A program made the translations under genes and the position numbers. Positions 33,423 through 54,812 of a stretch of 64,000 nt of DNA are shown piece by piece. The notes below the pieces were generated by a model. That model saw only the letters and a list, made by a program, of their open reading frames with translations. It was not told the DNA's origin and made no database searches. The stretch covers positions 1 to 64,000 of the forward strand of contig CANENS010000002.1 of NCBI GenBank assembly GCA_947428935.1. The letters are read 5' to 3'. Source of the stretch: an uncultured Candidatus Saccharibacteria bacterium (GTDB lineage Bacteria > Patescibacteriota > Saccharimonadia > Saccharimonadales > Saccharimonadaceae). Numbering within the stretch: position 1 is the stretch's first letter; every line of letters begins with the position of its first letter.

Positions 33423-33597
33423 TGGTGGGTCGCGAGGGGCCGGCTTTTCTGCAGAAAAGCCTTGACCGCAGGAGTGGCTGTAGCTCAAAAAGAAAACTTG
33501 TTTGCTTTTTGAGCTACAGCCACTCCTACGTTACGCACACATGTTGATTTAATCCGCCTACAAAACAAAATAAAGTCCCAAAGGACTTATTTTATTT
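33423..33597 (-). repeat. tRNA-end hairpin element behind tRNA-Val
   Basis: Lies between tRNA-Val and an exact 18-base copy of its 3' end (33423-33440). Inside, on the minus strand: a terminator, GTAACGT, a perfect 23-base inverted repeat (AGGAGTGGCTGTAGCTC... at 33470-33492 against 33505-33527), GGTCAAGG and a perfect 20-base palindrome (33442-33461). The order matches the elements behind tRNA-Ser. Confidence 0.75.
33560..33590 (-). terminator. tRNA-Val terminator
   Basis: Minus strand AAGTCC-TTTG-GGACTT followed by TATTTTGTTTTG, directly after the tRNA CCA. Confidence 0.8.
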
Positions 33598-41073: not shown

Positions 41074-41182
41074 AATATTCAGGTTTATAGAGTGGATTCC
41101 GTCGTCAGTTTGGCACTGATCGTCTCAGTGTGTAGTAGTGTGTATATATTTGCGTATGCAGTGGATTTGGATTTCGAAAAAA

Positions 41183-41340
41183 TGACTAACGGTCAATTTT
41201 GGTTATTTTCCAGAGGCGAAAATATTGACCGTTGGTCAATATTTTGATAGAAATTATTGACTACTGGTCATTTCTAAGGGAATTACTGACCAATAGTCAT
41301 TTTGCGAAAATTCCAGAGGAAAAATAATGACTGTTGGTCA
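41183..41340. promoter_or_regulatory. Cluster of five TGAC(C/T)-N3-(G/A)GTCA palindromes
   Basis: Sites at 41183, 41226, 41258, 41287 and 41328 (13 bases each), with a sixth at 41628-41640. The second lies in a perfect longer palindrome AATATTGACC/GGTCAATATT. Centre spacings are 43, 32, 29 and 41. They look like operator sites or iterons in an AT-rich 700-base gap upstream of the Nudix-RNase H gene. No regulator gene adjoins. Confidence 0.65.
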
Positions 41341-41462
41341 ATATTGTAAAATTGATCATTGGGTATTATATCAATACGTGGCATAATATTCTTGTGGAAG
41401 GGAATTTTGAAATAAAATCGATATTGGGAAGTTGATTTTTTCTCTTTTGAGAGGAAATGTGC

Positions 41463-45451: not shown

Positions 45452-47083
45452 TCAATGTAGTTGGTTACGCATCGCTAATGCTTCAGAAATGTGTTCAGTC
45501 TTCACCCCTGTAGAATGATCTAAATCTGCAATTGTTTGAGCAACTTTGATTACTTTGAAATAGCTGCGAGCAGATAGCTTGAGCTTCTTCGCAGCTTGCA
45601 ATAATAGCATTTTGGCGTCTGAATCGATACGAATATATTGATTGATTTCGTGTGATGAGAGTGAACCGTTAAAGCGTTTTTCGCTGTGAAAACGCTGGTT
45701 TTGAATTTTTATCACTTCTGTTATAGTATTTTTGACAATGGAATGTTCACAGGATTCTGAAGAATCCGGTGTTGCAGTGTCGCTTGGCTTTATTTTTGCC
45801 TCTGTTTCAGTTTTTTTGACAATAGGCTTTGTCGGAGCTTTGGTGGCTAAGTTGTCTATTTCGACTGGCTCCACGTTAATAATGAGATCGATCCGGTCGA
45901 GGATCGGGCCGGAGATTTTTCGTTGATAATGCTCGATTTGAGTAGTGCTGCACTTGCAGGCATGTTGCGTGGAGCCTAAATAGCCGCATGGGCAGGGGTT
46001 CATAGTGGCGATTAACATAAAATCGGCTGGATAAGTGAGGCGTTGTTTTGCCCGTATAACCGTGACTTTTTTGTCTTCTAGTGGCTGACGGAGAGCCTCG
46101 AGGACATGACGGGGAAATTCTGGGAGTTCGTCAAGAAAAAGTACGCCGCGGTGGGCAAGAGAAATTTCACCAATAGTTTGATTAGCGCCACCGATCATGG
46201 CAGCGAGACTAGCGGTGTGATGGGGTGCGCGAAAGGGGCGTTCAGTACAAGATTGGCCAGCGGTGGAAGCGAGGGCGTGGATTTTTGTAATTTCTAGTTT
46301 CTCCGAGGCGCTGGGCGGGGGCAGAAGGTTGGCCGCAGTATGGGCCAGCAGGGTTTTTCCAGAACCTGGAGGGCCAGAGAGTAACAGGTTGTGGCGCCCG
46401 GCTAAGGCGACGATTAGGGCGCGTTTTGCTAAAGCTTGCCCCTTGATGTCGTCTAAAGTGGGCTGGTTTGAGTCTTCCAGGGTTACAGTTTCTTTGACCA
46501 CTGTTTCTGTATTTTTGACATAATAAAGGGTCGGATCTTTTGATACCTCTGCAGCAGATTGAGTTTCGGTGTATTCGCCGATTAGCCGCAAAAATAGTTC
46601 TCGGAAGTTACGGATGCCGATGATTTCGATATTATCGATTAGTCGTGCTTGAACGGCGTTTTCTAGGGGCAGATAAACTTTTTTAAACCCGGAATTCTTG
46701 GCGGTTTCGACGATATTGATAATACCGCGTACTGGCTTGGCAAGGCCGTCTAGAGAGAGCTCGCCAACGAAGAGGGAGTTTATGAGGTGTTTTGATTGGA
46801 GCTGTTTAGATAAAACTAGAATAGCGAGCGCAATCGGAATATCTAGATGTGAGCCGTCTTTCATGAGCTCGGCGGGAGCAAGGTTGATGGTGGCTTTTTT
46901 GCTAGGAAACGAGAAACCGGAATTAGTGATGGCCGAACGCACTCGTTCTCGTGACTCGGAAATGGTTTTATTGGCCATACCAACGATATTGAAGGCGGGT
47001 AAGCCGTTACTGAGGTCGCCTTCGACCTCGATCAGTCGACCTCCGTAGCCATAGGGAATGGCGGAATATATTTTTGCAATCAT
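45452..47083 (-). CDS. comM: ComM/YifB-family AAA+ ATPase (Mg-chelatase-like)
   Basis: 543 aa. ComM is a hexameric helicase that extends branch migration during natural transformation. N-terminal Lon-protease-like ChlI domain (MIAKIYSAIPYGYGGRLIEVEGDLSNGLPAFNIVG), Walker A GPPGSGKT, Walker B GVLFLDELPEF, sensor ATMNPCPCG. Three short linker insertions encode VKNTETVV, VKKTETEA and VKNTITEV; at DNA level each is a copy of a repeat that is also found in the neighbouring intergenic DNA (45714, 45799, 46497). Insertions are in frame and between domains. Suggests the cell may take up DNA, useful for cassette exchange. Confidence 0.92.
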   Translation of the reverse strand: MIAKIYSAIPYGYGGRLIEVEGDLSNGLPAFNIVGMANKTISESRERVRSAITNSGFSFPSKKATINLAPAELMKDGSHLDIPIALAILVLSKQLQSKHLINSLFVGELSLDGLAKPVRGIINIVETAKNSGFKKVYLPLENAVQARLIDNIEIIGIRNFRELFLRLIGEYTETQSAAEVSKDPTLYYVKNTETVVKETVTLEDSNQPTLDDIKGQALAKRALIVALAGRHNLLLSGPPGSGKTLLAHTAANLLPPPSASEKLEITKIHALASTAGQSCTERPFRAPHHTASLAAMIGGANQTIGEISLAHRGVLFLDELPEFPRHVLEALRQPLEDKKVTVIRAKQRLTYPADFMLIATMNPCPCGYLGSTQHACKCSTTQIEHYQRKISGPILDRIDLIINVEPVEIDNLATKAPTKPIVKKTETEAKIKPSDTATPDSSESCEHSIVKNTITEVIKIQNQRFHSEKRFNGSLSSHEINQYIRIDSDAKMLLLQAAKKLKLSARSYFKVIKVAQTIADLDHSTGVKTEHISEALAMRNQLH

Positions 47084-47160
47084 AGCTTCAGGGTAGCATC
47101 ATTTTTGTAAAAATTACAACCCTTAGGTTCAAAAAAAAGACTGAGGGAGTTTTTGCTGCT

Positions 47161-47333: not shown

Positions 47334-47690
47334 GGGGCTGACAAAGCTTAGACGGATTATTAACAGACATCAGGCGTGACGAGTGATACCGTAAGTATTG
47401 AATAAGTGAAAAAACCACTTCGAAGCATGTGCTTTATGCACCTGCGTATGCTTAATTAGATATTTTAAGCTGGTTCGACACCGAGTCTCCGTAGGTGGCG
47501 AATTATTAGATTACGGTGATAGTATAAGTGGAGTTGATTAGTCCCTTGTGCGAATTTTATAATCAGGGCACTTGAAGTTTGGTTGCTTGCAGCTTCAAGG
47601 TTTTGCCGACTTAAAAACAGGCAACTACGCACGTAGAATGGTGTTATGGAGATTTTTCGGACCCGGAGGCAGTATCCGGCAGCTCCACCA
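47334..47690 (+). ncRNA. ssrA: Transfer-messenger RNA
   Basis: 357 bases. GGGGCTG at the 5' end pairs with CAGCTCC before the encoded ACCA. The tRNA-like half has TTTTTCGGACC...GGCAGCTCCACCA as in E. coli, though its T loop (GAGGCAGTATC) is atypical. Resume signal AATAAGT-GAA resembles the E. coli AATAGTC-GCA. The tag then reads EKTTSKHVLYAPAYA followed by TAA TTAG (about 47410-47456). It frees stalled ribosomes and marks proteins for degradation. The tag end AYA differs from the common LAA. Confidence 0.93.
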
Positions 47691-48100: not shown

Positions 48101-48323
48101 AAAAGCCTGTGTTGTGAAAAATACAACACAGGCTTTTCTAATAGTGAATAATTAGGGGAAGGAAGCGTTTATGATTACATGTTTTAATGTTGTGAACTTT
48201 ACAACATTTTTCGTTGACTAAGGAGATAAATACAGTGTTATTTTAGTTCGTTGTAGAATTTACAACATAATATATATCGTAAATAACAGAGGCAATTTGA
48301 ATACTGTTGTAGAAAATACAACA
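48101..48323. promoter_or_regulatory. Array of four TGTTGT-N7-ACAACA palindromes
   Basis: Sites at 48110-48128, 48188-48206, 48249-48267 and 48305-48323; the third has a C in place of the first T. Inner bases are always A/T-rich. The first is the core of a 15-base-arm hairpin (AAAAGCCTGTGTTGT...). The array ends 19 bases before the -35 of the long RNA promoter, so a repressor binding here could control it. Confidence 0.7.
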
Positions 48324-48341
48324 TTTTCTAAGAAAAAAGCC

Positions 48342-48376
48342 TTGTATTTTTAGCATAAGCGTGCTATGATGAAGAC
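48342..48376 (+). promoter_or_regulatory. Promoter of the long structured RNA candidate
   Basis: TTGTAT (48342), 17 bases ending AGCATAAGCGTGC, TATGAT (48365-48370). The spacer motif is the same as in the cassette-gene promoters. Confidence 0.75.
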
Positions 48377-50185
48377 AGTCCAAATCAAAAACAAACACGG
48401 ACCATAAAAAAGTACTTTACAAATTAGTTTAATGATCAAGCGGTATCCACAAGCGAAAAGGTAATTTCTAGCCATAAATTACAATTGAGGAATTACCTAA
48501 AGCTTGCGGAGACCTTGAGCGTTTTCCAATTGGGTTAGTATTGACGAGATGTTAGTATTGGATCCAGAAGCTACTAGGAAATTTTTCTAGAGACGTTTCG
48601 TAAAGGAGTTCGACTAAATATGTTTGATAGACTGACAGTTCGTTGAGAACAAGCAGTGTTTTTGAATAATATGAGGTAGGATTTCAGGAGCATGTATAGA
48701 GAAGAATTTCGATCGGGGGATGTCGGCTTTATTGGTACGAGATAATAACTTTGTTGATAGGCGAATCATATCCCGCGACAGTGGTTTAGCTGTAGGCAGC
48801 AGCGAAAGTCTATCATATTAGGGAACTTGAATTTATCTTTCGAGATAAACTCAGTTTACTAGGTTAATGATTGTGCTAAAGGGAAGCAGGAAGATTTATA
48901 GCAATATAAGATCGACCGGAAACTCGTAATCTGAGATGCTGGACTAATGCTATCCTTGTTGGTAGCTGAGGTTTGGAATCGACGAATACTACTGGAAAGT
49001 TGATAGAAGTCTATGAATAAGTAAGGTGGGATTCTCTAAGATTGCAAAAGTCGATAAGATGGAAGGAAATAGCTATTGTTTGATTGTAAGAATCTATCGA
49101 TCGGGCGTTCAAACAGGAAACTGAGGGGCGCGAAGATGCCGGATGGAGTCTAAACATATTCACTTTGGTGATTCAGAGGTGATTTTGGGGCGTGAGTCTT
49201 AGAAGAATCAATGGAGTCGAGGGCAGGAAACTGTTGGAGAGATATGGTTAGTGTTCGGTGAGCGTGGAAACAAAGTTTCGGACGTCAAGATAGTAGTTCA
49301 AGTCGAAGTTGAGGATTTTATCCTTAACCAGGCGTTTTTGCAAGAGATAACTATGGAGAATTATACCAACGATATAGCTGGAAAGTTTAAGGATAAACAG
49401 GGAAGGACCATTTTTGAAGAATTTCTTGTACCGTGAGCGAAAGTATTAGTGTTTTGCGAGTTAGCACATTTTGATATCAGAACGAGCAAACGAAGAAGCT
49501 AATGCTTGACTGTGCCCCACAAAAAGTGGAGCGGTCAATAAACTTAACAGAGGGTGGGTAAAGTTGTGGCCCAAAGTAATCTGTATTGTTCGCCAGATAA
49601 CTTGCCCATTCTCTCTATGGGGAGAAGAGCGGAGATGCTAGGATCCCCTTTGCCTGATAAGGTGGCTTTTTTGAGCGACTTTACTAAGGCTTCGTGATAA
49701 GATTTTAGATGCTGAACCCTTCGGGGCTTGGCGTCTAAAATCCGTCTTGTTGAATCAGGGGAAGATGATATGCGCCGGAGAGGCGACGCAGAAATTAGTG
49801 ACCTTTGTATTTATATCTGTGACCGGGTGCGATTCCAGTGGCTTTGCCAGACGGAGTTGTTGTTCAAACACTAAAAAGTGATGAGAGCGATGTGAAAGGC
49901 AGATTAGCTTTTCACATGACCCGGGAGGGGAAGACCCCGATTCTATCAACTGCGCAATTCAAAACCTGTAGAAGGGGATGTTTTGCGGGTTGCAGCTTTG
50001 GAAAAAAATCGCGCTAGATTTGTGCTGGAAGGCCGTGGTGGGCAGAGAGGGAAGCGCGAGATGTTAGAGGGGGCGTGACGGTGGGTTGCGCTGATTCCGG
50101 GAAAGCTGAATGGGGTAGGAGTTGACGAGCGTTGGCGACGATGATCGGCAGGCAGTTCCCTGGACTGTATCGGAATTTTTGGTAG
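48377..50185 (+). ncRNA. Candidate giant structured noncoding RNA (~1.8 kb)
   Basis: No frame over ~61 codons on the plus strand in 1.8 kb of a gene-dense genome, yet a strong promoter precedes it. Many stable hairpins with stable loops occur: TTTATCT-TTCG-AGATAAA (48833), GCTATC...GGTAGC (48948), GCCCCAC-AAAAA-GTGG-GC (49512), CCCAT...ATGGG (49607), a 12-base stem GATTTTAGATGC/GCGTCTAAAATC enclosing CCC-TTCG-GGG (49701-49742), GTGAAAGGC...GCTTTTCAC (49896) and GGGG-AAGA-CCCC (49926). Runs of purine-rich linkers (GGAAA, GAAG) resemble large ornate RNAs such as GOLLD, ROOL and HEARO, but I cannot match it to any. The 3' end is uncertain; a hairpin then AATTTTT lies at 50135-50186. Confidence 0.6.
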
Positions 50186-50249
50186 AGTGTGGAGCTCGAG
50201 ATACAGTTTGGGGATGACGCAGGACGAGATTTTGTGCTATAATAAGCTC

Positions 50250-50603
50250 ATGCCTAAACACCTGATTCCAGTTATGAGTACTTTGGCGGCAGTAGTGATA
50301 CTGGCGATGTTGAATTTTACAACTCCGGCGGCGGTGGGTCCGCTCGGGGGTTTGGTTTTTTTTACAATGCTTTATGTCGTAGCGCTGGGAATATCGACCG
50401 CGATCGTGAAGCTGTTTGTGAAGGCTATGGGGCGGCAAATGGGCAAGAAAGAACAACTTTATGCGGCGGTAATCGCTTTCGGTCCGATTATGCTTATGCT
50501 CGCGCAATCGCTAGGAACTATGAATCCGCTCACCATCGTGTTGACGGTGGTGTTTGTCTTTTTGACCTGTTTTTTGATTAGCAAAAAGAGCGCGCGGGTG
50601 TGA
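50250..50603 (+). CDS. Small membrane protein, three to four helices
   Basis: 117 aa from ATG 50250; GTGCTATAAT ends at 50243, six bases upstream (leaderless). Hydrophobic segments at about 5-24, 29-58 and 67-113, with a KAMGRQMGKKEQ cytoplasmic loop. No recognised family. Transcribed immediately after the structured RNA region but from its own promoter. Confidence 0.6.
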   Translation: MPKHLIPVMSTLAAVVILAMLNFTTPAAVGPLGGLVFFTMLYVVALGISTAIVKLFVKAMGRQMGKKEQLYAAVIAFGPIMLMLAQSLGTMNPLTIVLTVVFVFLTCFLISKKSARV

Positions 50604-50650
50604 ATTAAGACGAAGGCTTTTGGTGCGGCTGATTTTTCCGTAATAGGGTT

Positions 50651-50767
50651 ATGCATATGTATTTTTGACTAGAGAAAACCGTAAGACATAAACGTTTTAC
50701 TGGGTGTGAGTCCAAAAAAAGCTCGATTTTTGGCTTTGTACCTCTGTTTATGTAATTTTGACAGTGG
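50651..50767 (+). repeat. Two further copies of the GTATTTTTGACAATG repeat
   Basis: Degenerate copies at 50651-50674 and 50741-50767 (TACCTCTGTTTATGTAATT then TTGACAGTGG). Same orientation as the copies in and near comM. They lie on the far side of the structured RNA. Confidence 0.5.
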
Positions 50768-50981
50768 TTATTTGGGGATTTACGAATGAATTTTTAGGCG
50801 CGATTAAGCTTTTAGTTAAAAATATTATACGCTTGATACGGATTTTTTGGTCGGTAAAGGCTAAAAAAGGGATTAATTGATTATGATTAAAATGATTGTA
50901 CAGCTAAAATGGTTAGTTTTGCTAAAAATGATTATTGTTAAAAAATGTGAACGATACGAAAAATTGTGTTAGAATAAGGTT

Positions 50982-51830
50982 ATGAATATCCAAGGGAAGT
51001 TGGCAGCACGTAAAGCGGCGCAGGATTTGACCAAAGAGATCGAACAGGCCACTAGCGCTGCTATTACTCCGGAAATTAAGGCGGTAAATACAGAGAGAAC
51101 AAAGGCCGCTATCCAGGGTCTAGGCCAGAGTGGACTAAAACAAGTGTCGCTTTCGGAAAAAATGGAAAAAGCTAATCAAGATAGCTCAGTGGTTGTTTCG
51201 CCGGGAAAAATACCCCAGAATGGGGTTGAGGGGCACTTGGAGGGGCCTGTAGGCACTTCGAACGAAAATGTGGGTCCGGACTCCACTAAAATGTCAGAAG
51301 GACTTCTGGTGAGTAATACGGAGCAAGAATGGCTTACGGAGAGCGCTTCTAACACCACTCTGGGCGAAAAGGCGACCATGAGTGCGGAAATGGATCAGAA
51401 TGGGCTTCGAAGTGATTTTGGAGGTTCTGAAGATTATTCTAGGGGTGGCGTTGATTGGAAAGTCGGGAAAGCATCGGAAACGTTTGCTTTGCCAGGACAG
51501 GAACAGATGGTGCAAAGTGGAGCAGAGCAAGAATTGGGGCGGGATGAAGCTGAGTTGTTGCAGGCGCAGAATTTTGTGGGTGAGGAGAGTCCCGAGCAGG
51601 TTCAGGAACGTTTGGCGGAAGACCGTGAGGATTTTGAGCAAGAGTTGAAGGTTGAAACTGGGAGAGCGAAACTGACAGCAAATCAGGAGCGGTTGACAGA
51701 TGAAGCGGTAAAACATATTGAGCAAGTGGTTGCGGAGACGGCGGATCGTCCAGGTGAGTTGGAGCGGGCTTGGTTCTTGGGGATGACGAAGTTTATCAAA
51801 AATAGTTATGGCCGTGATTTTGGAGATTGA
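50982..51830 (+). CDS. Acidic, low-complexity protein preceding the secretion ATPase
   Basis: 282 aa. TAGAAT at 50970-50975 is six bases before the ATG. Rich in E, Q, S, G, without membrane segments. Residues 1-50 and 195-282 are predicted helical (ELGRDEAELLQAQNF, EQVQERLAEDREDFEQELKVE); the centre is disordered. It ends six bases before the type IV secretion-type ATPase gene, so it is probably its cytoplasmic partner. Not recognised as a family. Confidence 0.6.
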   Translation: MNIQGKLAARKAAQDLTKEIEQATSAAITPEIKAVNTERTKAAIQGLGQSGLKQVSLSEKMEKANQDSSVVVSPGKIPQNGVEGHLEGPVGTSNENVGPDSTKMSEGLLVSNTEQEWLTESASNTTLGEKATMSAEMDQNGLRSDFGGSEDYSRGGVDWKVGKASETFALPGQEQMVQSGAEQELGRDEAELLQAQNFVGEESPEQVQERLAEDREDFEQELKVETGRAKLTANQERLTDEAVKHIEQVVAETADRPGELERAWFLGMTKFIKNSYGRDFGD

Positions 51831-51836
51831 AATTAG

Positions 51837-54812
51837 ATGCCTTGGATTTTGACGATAGTAATTACATTGGCAGTAATCATAGCCGTATCTGGTATGGTGC
51901 TGGGAGTTTTTGTTAGTAAACGCCGGAAGGCGAAGAACTATGAACGTGGCCTCAAGATGGTGCCGATGCTGATTCATTTGCCGCCTTCGACTGATGATAT
52001 TCAAGGGGGCGGGCGAGATGAGCGTGATGTGACAAATGAGGCACTTTCTCAGGCGCAAGTTATGTATTCAATCATCGCTTCAACATTAATTAAAGGCTTT
52101 AAGGCTAGGGTTTATGGACAGCGGCATATTTCTTTTGAAGTGGTGGCGACTAATGGTTTGATTAGGTATTATGCGGTGGTGCCGGCGGTGATCACGGAGA
52201 CGGTAAAGCAGGCGATCCTTTCGGCCTATCCTACGGCGCGGCTGGAGGAAATTGAGCCCGAAAGTATCTTCGCTAAGGGTGTGACTAGTGCGCAAGTGGC
52301 AGGCGGCGAAATGCGGCTTAAGAAAGAGAGTGTTTATCCGATTGCGACTTATGAAGATAGTAGGCGAGACGCAAGTCTGGCAATTTTAAATGCAATGTCG
52401 GTGGTGAAACAGGACGAAGGTGTGGTTGTACAAATTTTGTGTAGACCGGCGGATGAAAAGTGGACTGAAAAGTCGAAACAGTGTATACAAAATATACGAG
52501 ATGGCAAGGAAAAGAAATCGGGTAGTATAAAAGTTTTATACGCCTTGAGTAATTTTATTAAGGACTTGATTCAGGCTTTTCGGGCTGATCCAAATGAACA
52601 CAAAAATGATGAGCGTAAGCCATTAACTAGTTTGCAAGAGGAGGAAGTTGAGGCGATCGGCAATAAGACCAAGAGTCCGGGTTTCGAAACTTTGGTGCGG
52701 GTGGTGGCGAGTGCACGAGAACGGGAACGGTCAGAGGCGGTTCTGGGCGGTGTAGTGGCGGCTTTTGCGCAGTTTGACTCACCGAAATATAATGGCCTGA
52801 AATTTGAAGCCATGAAGGATACAAAAAAATTGGGCATTGATTATGTCTTTCGTTTTTTCCCGCAGGGGACGAAAGATAATATATTAAATGGCGTGGAATT
52901 GGCAACGCTTTTTCACTTGCCAGCGCAGAATGCGATTCCGACTTCACAGGTTGAGCGGCAGGCGATTAAGCAGGTAGATGGACCGGCGCGATTGGTGACT
53001 GAAGGAGTTTTGCTGGGAGTGAATGAGTTTCGGGGGGTGCAAAAGGAGATTCGCTTAAGCGAGAATGACCGTAGGCGGCATACTTATGTGATTGGTTCTA
53101 CAGGTATGGGTAAGTCGGTTTTACTGACTAATGTAGCGTATCAAGACATGGTTGAAGGGCGCGGCTTCGCCTTCATCGATCCACACGGGGATGCAGTAGA
53201 ACTATTATTGTCAAAGGTGCCTGAAAATCGAGTTGATGACGTGATCTATTTCGATCCGGCGGACATTGAGCATCCGCTAGGGATGAACATGTTTGAATTC
53301 GCCTCAGAAGACCAGAAGGATTTTATCGTACAAGAAGGTATCAACATGCTGGTGAGCTTGTTCGATCCGGGCGGGCAGGGCTATTTTGGTCCGCGAGGTC
53401 AGCATATGTTTCGTAATGCAGCGCTGCTACTCATGAGTGACCCAAATGGCGCGACTTTTATTGATATTCCACAGTGTTTCACTGATCCAGAATTCGTGAA
53501 AAGCAAATTGCCATATGTAACTGATAAAGCAGTATATGACTATTGGACGAAGGAATTCCCGGCCTCACAAAAATCGAATGACGCCGGCGAAGTAGTGACC
53601 TGGTTTGCTTCGAAATGGGGACCATTCCTCAGTAATACGATCATGCGTAATATTCTTGGTCAGGCTAAAAGCGGTTTTAATATTCGCGAAATCATGGATG
53701 GACAGAAAATTTTCTTGGTCAACCTTTCAAAGGGGCGTTTGGGGGATATTAATTCGAACCTGCTTGGGATGATTCTGGTGATGAAGTTTCAGGCTGCGGC
53801 TATGAGCCGAGCGGATATTTCAGAGCACGAGCGGAAAGATTTTTGTCTCTTTGTGGATGAGTTTCAGAATTTTGCGACTGAGAGTTTCGAAAGTATTTTG
53901 TCGGAGGCCAGGAAATATCGCTTAAATCTGTTCTTAGCAAATCAATTTATGACTCAGTTGACTGATAAAATTCGCGAGGGGATTTTGGGGAACGTGGGAA
54001 CGATCATGTCTGGGCGGCTTGGGGTGACGGACGCAGAGCTGATGGAGAAAGCGTTTACGCCGGTTTTTAACGCGGAGGATTTGCATAAACAGGGCAATTT
54101 CCAGGCGATTGCGACGGTGATGATGAATAATTTGCCGACTGCGCCGTTTACTATGAAGTTGTTGCCGCCGATGGGTGAGTCTGACGCGGAATTAATGGCG
54201 CGTATGAAGGAGTTTGTGGCGGTGAAATATGGACGTACGCGGGCGGAGGTTGAAGCGGAGATTAAGGCGCGTTGGAAAACGGTGAAAAAAGAAGAAAAAC
54301 AGGTTGAAAAAACTGGTGACCAGGGTCCGATTGGTGAGCTTGAGGCGATTCAGGGAAAAAAAGTGGCTACGGTACGGACGGAGATTGAACAGAAGGAAAA
54401 AACAGCGCTGAAAACTGGATTTTTAGATTCTTGGCGAGCAAAACGCGCTAAAATGACCTCTCAGGGCCCTCCAGAAGCTCGAGAAGAGGGTTCTGGGTCT
54501 GAGGTGTGGTCTGATAGCGTTAAAAGTTTAGAGAGGTCTGGTGTGGCTTCTGGAGAGCCCGAATCCCTTGCGAAAACGCCGCTAGGGCCAATTTCGGGGC
54601 AAAAGCTTGGTATGCCAGCGGAGAAAACGCAGGCGGGTCTTAACGGTGATTCTAAGGCTTCTGGAGGGCACCCTAAGGGGGTTGATCAGTCAAAGACGCC
54701 AGAAACATCAAAAGTGGCACAAGCACCTAGCGTTCCAGAGGCGCCAGATGTATCACCGGAGCCAAAAACGCAAAATAATGACGAAATCGTATTTCAAATT
54801 CGCAAAAAGTAG
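51837..54812 (+). CDS. Type IV secretion/conjugation-type ATPase (VirD4/TraG/VirB4-like)
   Basis: 991 aa. N-terminal membrane helix (4-28), a domain of ~350 residues, then a P-loop ATPase: Walker A IGSTGMGKS (about 420-427), FAFIDPHGDAVELLL, Walker B FCLFVDEFQNFATE (about 668-680) and a SEARKYRLNLFLANQF helix, which is the TraG/VirB4/HerA-like arrangement. The C-terminal 200 residues are a disordered K/E/P/S-rich tail. In CPR such ATPases occur with TrbC-like proteins (see 23240) and may power pili or transfer of DNA or effectors into the host. No relaxase or other mating genes are nearby. Confidence 0.85.
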   Translation: MPWILTIVITLAVIIAVSGMVLGVFVSKRRKAKNYERGLKMVPMLIHLPPSTDDIQGGGRDERDVTNEALSQAQVMYSIIASTLIKGFKARVYGQRHISFEVVATNGLIRYYAVVPAVITETVKQAILSAYPTARLEEIEPESIFAKGVTSAQVAGGEMRLKKESVYPIATYEDSRRDASLAILNAMSVVKQDEGVVVQILCRPADEKWTEKSKQCIQNIRDGKEKKSGSIKVLYALSNFIKDLIQAFRADPNEHKNDERKPLTSLQEEEVEAIGNKTKSPGFETLVRVVASARERERSEAVLGGVVAAFAQFDSPKYNGLKFEAMKDTKKLGIDYVFRFFPQGTKDNILNGVELATLFHLPAQNAIPTSQVERQAIKQVDGPARLVTEGVLLGVNEFRGVQKEIRLSENDRRRHTYVIGSTGMGKSVLLTNVAYQDMVEGRGFAFIDPHGDAVELLLSKVPENRVDDVIYFDPADIEHPLGMNMFEFASEDQKDFIVQEGINMLVSLFDPGGQGYFGPRGQHMFRNAALLLMSDPNGATFIDIPQCFTDPEFVKSKLPYVTDKAVYDYWTKEFPASQKSNDAGEVVTWFASKWGPFLSNTIMRNILGQAKSGFNIREIMDGQKIFLVNLSKGRLGDINSNLLGMILVMKFQAAAMSRADISEHERKDFCLFVDEFQNFATESFESILSEARKYRLNLFLANQFMTQLTDKIREGILGNVGTIMSGRLGVTDAELMEKAFTPVFNAEDLHKQGNFQAIATVMMNNLPTAPFTMKLLPPMGESDAELMARMKEFVAVKYGRTRAEVEAEIKARWKTVKKEEKQVEKTGDQGPIGELEAIQGKKVATVRTEIEQKEKTALKTGFLDSWRAKRAKMTSQGPPEAREEGSGSEVWSDSVKSLERSGVASGEPESLAKTPLGPISGQKLGMPAEKTQAGLNGDSKASGGHPKGVDQSKTPETSKVAQAPSVPEAPDVSPEPKTQNNDEIVFQIRKK

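Follow-up and report, generated by a model that had tools for sequence, protein, structure and literature searches.

A probable non-coding RNA gene kept across Saccharibacteria and lengthened in one lineage

Introduction

In the genome of an uncultured Saccharibacteria bacterium we found a locus that most probably (we put it at about 0.7) is a stand-alone gene for a structured non-coding RNA, ancestral to Saccharibacteria, carried once by nearly every genome of the order and expanded in the copy described here. Saccharibacteria are tiny, reduced, parasitic epibionts that occur in animals as well as in many environments, and their regulation is poorly understood. From the sequence comparisons below, they appear to rely on this conserved RNA. 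The locus also illustrates clearly how a small RNA has passed 1 kb in a single lineage through insertion, and so bears on the origin of large RNAs. Transformable cultured strains of Saccharibacteria exist (PMC10633639).

Results

We analysed a window of 64,000 nt (the whole stretch of DNA under study), in which 48377-50240 holds no credible gene and about 2.5 kb are gene-free between tmRNA and the gene of a 117-aa membrane protein, MPKH (Table 1). The first-pass annotation had described 48377-50185 as lacking a credible gene, and this was confirmed: the longest ORFs with ATG, GTG or TTG starts in this interval measure 61-64 aa, and tblastn searches of 18 relatives with all 29 of its frames that reach 35 aa returned, among the matches listed, essentially only the conserved RNA blocks. 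A conserved protein in the gap was rejected, since no frame was kept outside these blocks in the same searches.

Table 1. Features of the locus, in window positions.
Feature	Position	Strand	Basis
comM/yifB-type gene, constant upstream neighbour	45452..47083	-	ORF and tblastn synteny
tmRNA, upstream neighbour in the window's family and some others	47334..47690	+	RF00023, E = 1.3e-25
Four perfect GTTGT-N6-TACAAC palindromes (starts 48111, 48189, 48250, 48306) ahead of the RNA promoter, probable operators	48111..48322	.	
RNA promoter, TTGTAT-17-TGC-TATGAT, extended -10	48342..48370	+	Sequence; segment kept in close relatives
5′ hairpin GUCC...GGAC with A-rich loop (CAAAUCAAAAACAAACAC)	48376..48403	+	Sequence
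Conserved 5′ core	48446..48510	+	Genus homologs; compensatory changes
Lineage-specific insertion of ~920 nt between 5′ core and 3′ domain	48515..49435	+	Unmatched in relatives; folding z = -1.7
Conserved 3′ domain (R3 model match 49499-49614)	49436..49640	+	Covariance-model searches
Hairpin P2, GAC-UGUGCCCCAC-AAAAA-GUGGAGCG-GUC, then conserved CAA	49508..49536	+	Covariation in A1, A4, A5
Stem P3 with internal loop (GGGUGGGUAAAGUUGUGGCCCAAAGUAAUC...GCCAGAUAACUUGCCCAUUCUCUC)	49550..49620	+	Covariation in A1, A4, A5
Species-level 3′ extension, including a 15-bp stem at 49701-49742; ends TTTGGGG beside the next gene's promoter	49641..50213	+	Folding z = -4.14
Next gene's promoter, ATGACG-18-TG-TATAAT, ending 6 nt before the ATG	50214..50243	+	Sequence; nearly all relatives arranged alike
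117-aa small membrane protein (MPKH), constant downstream neighbour	50250..50603	+	Family search and synteny

Transcription of the RNA is predicted to start near 48376-48378. A strong promoter had been proposed at this place; TTGTAT-17-TATGAT does lie at 48342-48370, within a conserved block, but its -35 element is weaker than that proposal implied. In loci from other families, the pattern TTGAC[AT]-17-TANNNT precedes the RNA in 12 of 20, and a terminator-like hairpin with a U-run follows P3 by 20-70 nt in 11 of 20, compared to 0.9 expected from shuffles. Neither the window nor most of its genus shows a clear terminator. Because a sigma-70-like promoter before and an intrinsic terminator after the RNA recur in many families, the RNA is most likely a stand-alone non-coding RNA. 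The next gene in the genus has an extended -10 of its own, located a few nucleotides before the ATG in nearly all relatives; since this promoter ends 6 nt before the ATG in the window, the mRNA is probably leaderless. CTTGGGGG was rejected as the -35 of this gene because its distance to the -10 is too variable.

The RNA had also been placed right after tmRNA and a small RNA. Rfam confirmed the upstream tmRNA, which likewise sits beside the RNA in the relatives scanned with Rfam; the "small RNA" was not confirmed, and what stands there is a set of terminator-like hairpins together with a 17-bp palindrome in four copies. With at most one mismatch, GTTGT-N6-TACAAC matches 11 times in the window on both strands (0.7 expected) and, genome-wide (G000), 14 times on the forward strand, against 0 for a reversed-pattern control. 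It is a probable operator of some regulator. A further copy of the palindrome lies before comM, at 47104-47120. The tmRNA itself (47334-47690) was found by Rfam and missed by ARAGORN; its tag, read by hand, would end in ...HVLYAPAYA.

By blastn, the region was recovered in 50 of 100 relatives, all from the same genus, as two blocks (48342-48511 and ~49460-49618), and 48453-48504 is 90-96% identical in many of these relatives. When named genomes were searched for exact occurrences of the core pattern, at least 115 stretches were obtained, and among the matches listed all were Saccharibacteria, many from the ruminant gut. A viral, phage or plasmid origin was rejected, the core pattern being absent from viral contigs, the region from phages and the core from plasmids. 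Covariance-model searches reached much further. The first model (R1) was built from a MAFFT alignment of 41 sequences of the 3′ domain (A1), and R2 and R3 are the second and third rounds of its refinement. R1 found the 3′ domain in 152 of 174 genomes of the genus (107 of the 110 good ones) and gave weaker matches in other genera of the family, which, where checked, always lay between comM/tmRNA and the same gene. With R2, it was detected in 32 of 40 genomes, most of them picked from other families. Across the order, R3 matched 332 of 393 genomes (among good genomes, 281 of 317), nearly always just once per genome. Among the good genomes, three in the genus and 36 in the order lacked a 3′-domain match; some of these may carry divergent copies. 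In a sample of 381 genomes from the phylum, which doubles as a false-positive control, matches fell within the order, plus one genome of the same class (G565, E = 1.5e-4), and no 3′-domain match was found outside that class, which is named Saccharimonadia (PMC12102498). An RNA found once per genome and at the same place in 130 of the 156 genera sampled from the order is probably important, and yet it is listed in no RNA library.

The order comM, RNA, small membrane protein was seen in every family examined. We collected 124 distinct loci, and all those that could be checked read comM (reverse), tmRNA when present, RNA and small membrane protein. In other families, the upstream flank is comM or infC, the neighbour of comM, and the downstream flank the same kind of 110-130-aa membrane protein. 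As tmRNA is not always found between comM and the RNA, its linkage is incidental. MPKH matched no Pfam or NCBIfam family. The stretch that begins with it (50250-54812) continues with an unknown protein of 282 aa and a coupling ATPase of the conjugation type (991 aa; Pfam T4SS-DNA_transf), then gyrB and gyrA.

Alignment of the 3′ domain revealed two helices, P2 and P3, supported by covariation. In A1, 9 of 17 pairs carry two-sided changes, 99.3% of the cells can pair (89.6% after shuffling) and two-sided cells number 92 (26 after shuffling). An alignment of 39 sequences drawn from many families (A5) gave 97.3% paired cells versus 73.9% when shuffled and 143 two-sided changes versus 40.3, with 0 of 500 shuffles reaching these values; in slid controls, pairing dropped to 36-49%. 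Covariation in A4 was similar to that in A5. Pair counts from R2 and R3 lean towards the structure of the earlier model, because their alignments were fitted to it, a bias from which the MAFFT-based A1 is free. Across the order, P2 takes the form CGCUC..GAGCGGUCAGUC and P3, with its internal loop, AAGCGCU...AAUAGU...AGCGGAUUU. In other families, too, the RNA starts with an A-rich leader resembling AAACAAAAAC, which often forms a small hairpin.

Sequence conservation of the 5′ core is confined to the genus level. The core consists of an outer helix (48446-48454/48502-48510) and an inner 12-bp helix (48459-48470/48487-48498) that encloses UUUCUAGCCAUAAAUUACA. Compensatory changes in the helical part of the 5′ core are few but real: A-U to U-A three times, U-A to C-G, and A-U to G-C. 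The enclosed UUUCUAGCCAUAAAUUACA is almost invariant even in species that have lost the 3′ strand of the inner helix, which suggests that this part of the 5′ core is recognised by its sequence as well.

A micro-ORF is often present in the 5′ part of the RNA. An ATG ORF with a ribosome binding site was present in 89 of the 124 loci, compared to 14.8 expected from base-shuffled leaders. These ORFs have mostly 4-12 codons, are rich in Lys and Arg (MKYK*, MKKFKT*, MKKKRFKARNKP*) and stop shortly before the core helix (for example in loci L023, L021 and L029); in the window copy the micro-ORF is weak or absent. Its presence is kept across loci, but the peptide sequence mostly is not, and a conserved peptide was rejected because the synonymous fraction (0.22) is near that of random changes (0.19).

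With 1.25-1.85 kb, the window copy is the longest among the 124, and the distance from core to MPKH is 1791 nt in the window versus 262-1177 nt at other loci. The expansion is mainly the 920-nt insertion (48515-49435), plus a well-folded tail of 570 nt. No nucleotide match to the insertion was found in relatives, where its site is a variable segment of a few to several hundred nucleotides. The abundance of stems reported for 48377-50185 holds for 48301-48600 (z = -3.4), 49501-49800 (z = -5.3, the fourth lowest of 213 window tiles) and the tail at 49641-50210 (z = -4.14, 0 of 100 shuffles), all of which fold beyond chance, but not for the tiles of 48601-49500, whose z-scores of -1.5 to +0.7 are no better than chance; the insertion taken as a whole (z = -1.7) is marginally below its shuffles. 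The hairpin pointed out earlier at 49701-49742 is present, with a stem of 15 bp. The tail (49641-50213) is not conserved in relatives and may be part of the transcript, which would end either close to 49640 or close to 50213.

Discussion

The reading of this stretch as an undescribed structured RNA is borne out by the lack of a matching Rfam family, the covarying helices in Saccharibacteria homologs and the RNA's own promoter; among the points on which that reading was to stand or fall, covarying pairs were found and coding conservation was absent. We propose that the RNA would be transcribed alone, possibly under the control of a regulator binding to the upstream palindromes, and would fold into the 5′ A-rich hairpin, P2 and P3. 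It would then act as RNA, most likely either scaffolding a small ribonucleoprotein or serving as a trans-acting regulator, and its partner would be recognised through conserved unpaired motifs, namely GGUCAGUC together with AAUAGU and GGAU in P3. The RNA would tolerate insertions between its 5′ and 3′ parts, much as RNase P and SRP RNA do in their peripheral domains, and such an insertion would have lengthened the window copy. A bolder version, which we think improbable, would make it an essential RNA of all Saccharibacteria, part of a class-specific ribonucleoprotein that replaces a seemingly missing housekeeping RNA, with GTTGT-N6-TACAAC defining a regulon and, in one genus, the 5′ part occupied by ribosomes through an ORF of 4-14 codons.

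A tenable, if doubtful, alternative is that the RNA is a cis-acting leader, a riboswitch or attenuator of the membrane-protein gene, in which P2/P3 would sense a ligand and the hairpin would gate transcription. In every family examined the same gene follows the RNA in the same orientation, as it would with such a leader, the terminator-like hairpins of 11 of 20 loci stand between RNA and gene as they do in known attenuators, and some families have no obvious promoter for the gene. However, comM is equally constant on the upstream side, so that synteny by itself says little in favour of a leader. In the genus, moreover, the gene has its own extended -10 near the ATG, giving a leaderless promoter, and no terminator lies in between. 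Examined for antiterminator pairing, the left arms of 13 terminators showed no consistent excess of pairing with the RNA over shuffles (fractions 0.045-0.835).

The 1.85 kb of the window copy could represent a genuinely giant ornate RNA that uses both the 920-nt insertion and the 570-nt tail as functional, structured domains comparable to those of GOLLD, ROOL, HEARO and OLE. The tail beats 100 of 100 shuffles, and several near relatives are also long, with 450-850 nt from the core to the 3′ motif. Like these RNAs, ours is a long structured bacterial RNA with its own promoter and large differences in size between species. We nevertheless consider this reading unlikely, since the insertion is unconserved in relatives and folds only marginally better than its shuffles, and most species dispense with both insertion and tail. 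In contrast to the four giant families, the RNA gave no sequence or structure match to them in Rfam, occupies an ordinary single-copy chromosomal locus within one bacterial class, and has a small core, so that large size is not a property of the family. The modelled core comprises 112 positions and the basic length is about 150-260 nt in most families; the first-pass annotation's term "giant", based on 1.8 kb that is mostly lineage-specific, does not describe the family. With an insertion that is neither conserved nor unusually folded and a tail that is not conserved, the term fits the lineage and not the RNA family.

The RNA belongs to no known family, although the way in which it acts may yet prove to be a familiar one. 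In Rfam 15, no family matched it when the window was searched at gathering scores, searches of the region at E up to 10 gave chance-level matches only, and none was found in 18 relatives or, at E up to 0.5, in 15 loci from across the order. No description of the RNA was found in the open literature searched. As an identity, SRP RNA, 6S RNA, tmRNA and RNase P RNA are all disfavoured or excluded. The RNA resembles tmRNA in that tmRNA is its neighbour in several families and in that the RNA of most species in the genus also carries a very short ORF; it differs in having neither a tRNA-like end nor a tag ORF common to all families, and the true tmRNA adjoins it, the RF00023 match covering 47334-47690 alone.

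That the RNA is a divergent SRP or 6S RNA of Saccharibacteria, missed by existing models, is very improbable. RF00169 found no match in seven genomes and RF01854 none in eight (G000, G040, G026, G064, G083, G084, G094 and, as the eighth, G318), and 6S RNA was matched weakly in one; with both sets of models nearly matchless, these roles look vacant, and SRP is possibly absent from these genomes. A universal, single-copy RNA would suit either role, its expandable periphery recalls bacterial SRP RNA and its basic length is similar to that of 6S RNA. The consensus, however, lacks the helix-8 signature of SRP RNA (a GNRA loop and an AGCA symmetric loop), as judged by inspection of the conserved columns of A1, A4 and A5, and a regular-expression search found no Ffh/FtsY GTPase motif in the single-contig genome G094. 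A loose scan for SRP motifs in G094 was too noisy to be of use; the one match with five mismatches that was taken further lies just before an apparent rpsF-like ORF and scored no SRP family. As for 6S RNA, RF00013 did not match the RNA, which forms several hairpins and not one long bulged rod. One Saccharibacteria family does have a 6S-like match below the cut-off (E = 5e-7), close to comM and tmRNA (G083, C15:7775-7926), and this match lies apart from the RNA described here (C15:13535-13650).

The least credible explanation, a decaying intergenic region with chance hairpins, would suit the appearance of the 920-nt insertion taken by itself and is refuted for the conserved parts by covariation, order-wide presence and fixed synteny.

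Two other places in the window also fold strongly. At 33467-33530, beside tRNA-Val, a nearly perfect inverted repeat of 31 nt with a 2-nt loop has the strongest folding of the window (z = -10.4), and 41174-41345 contains clustered, related inverted repeats with units resembling TTGACCGTTGGTCAA (z = -4.7).
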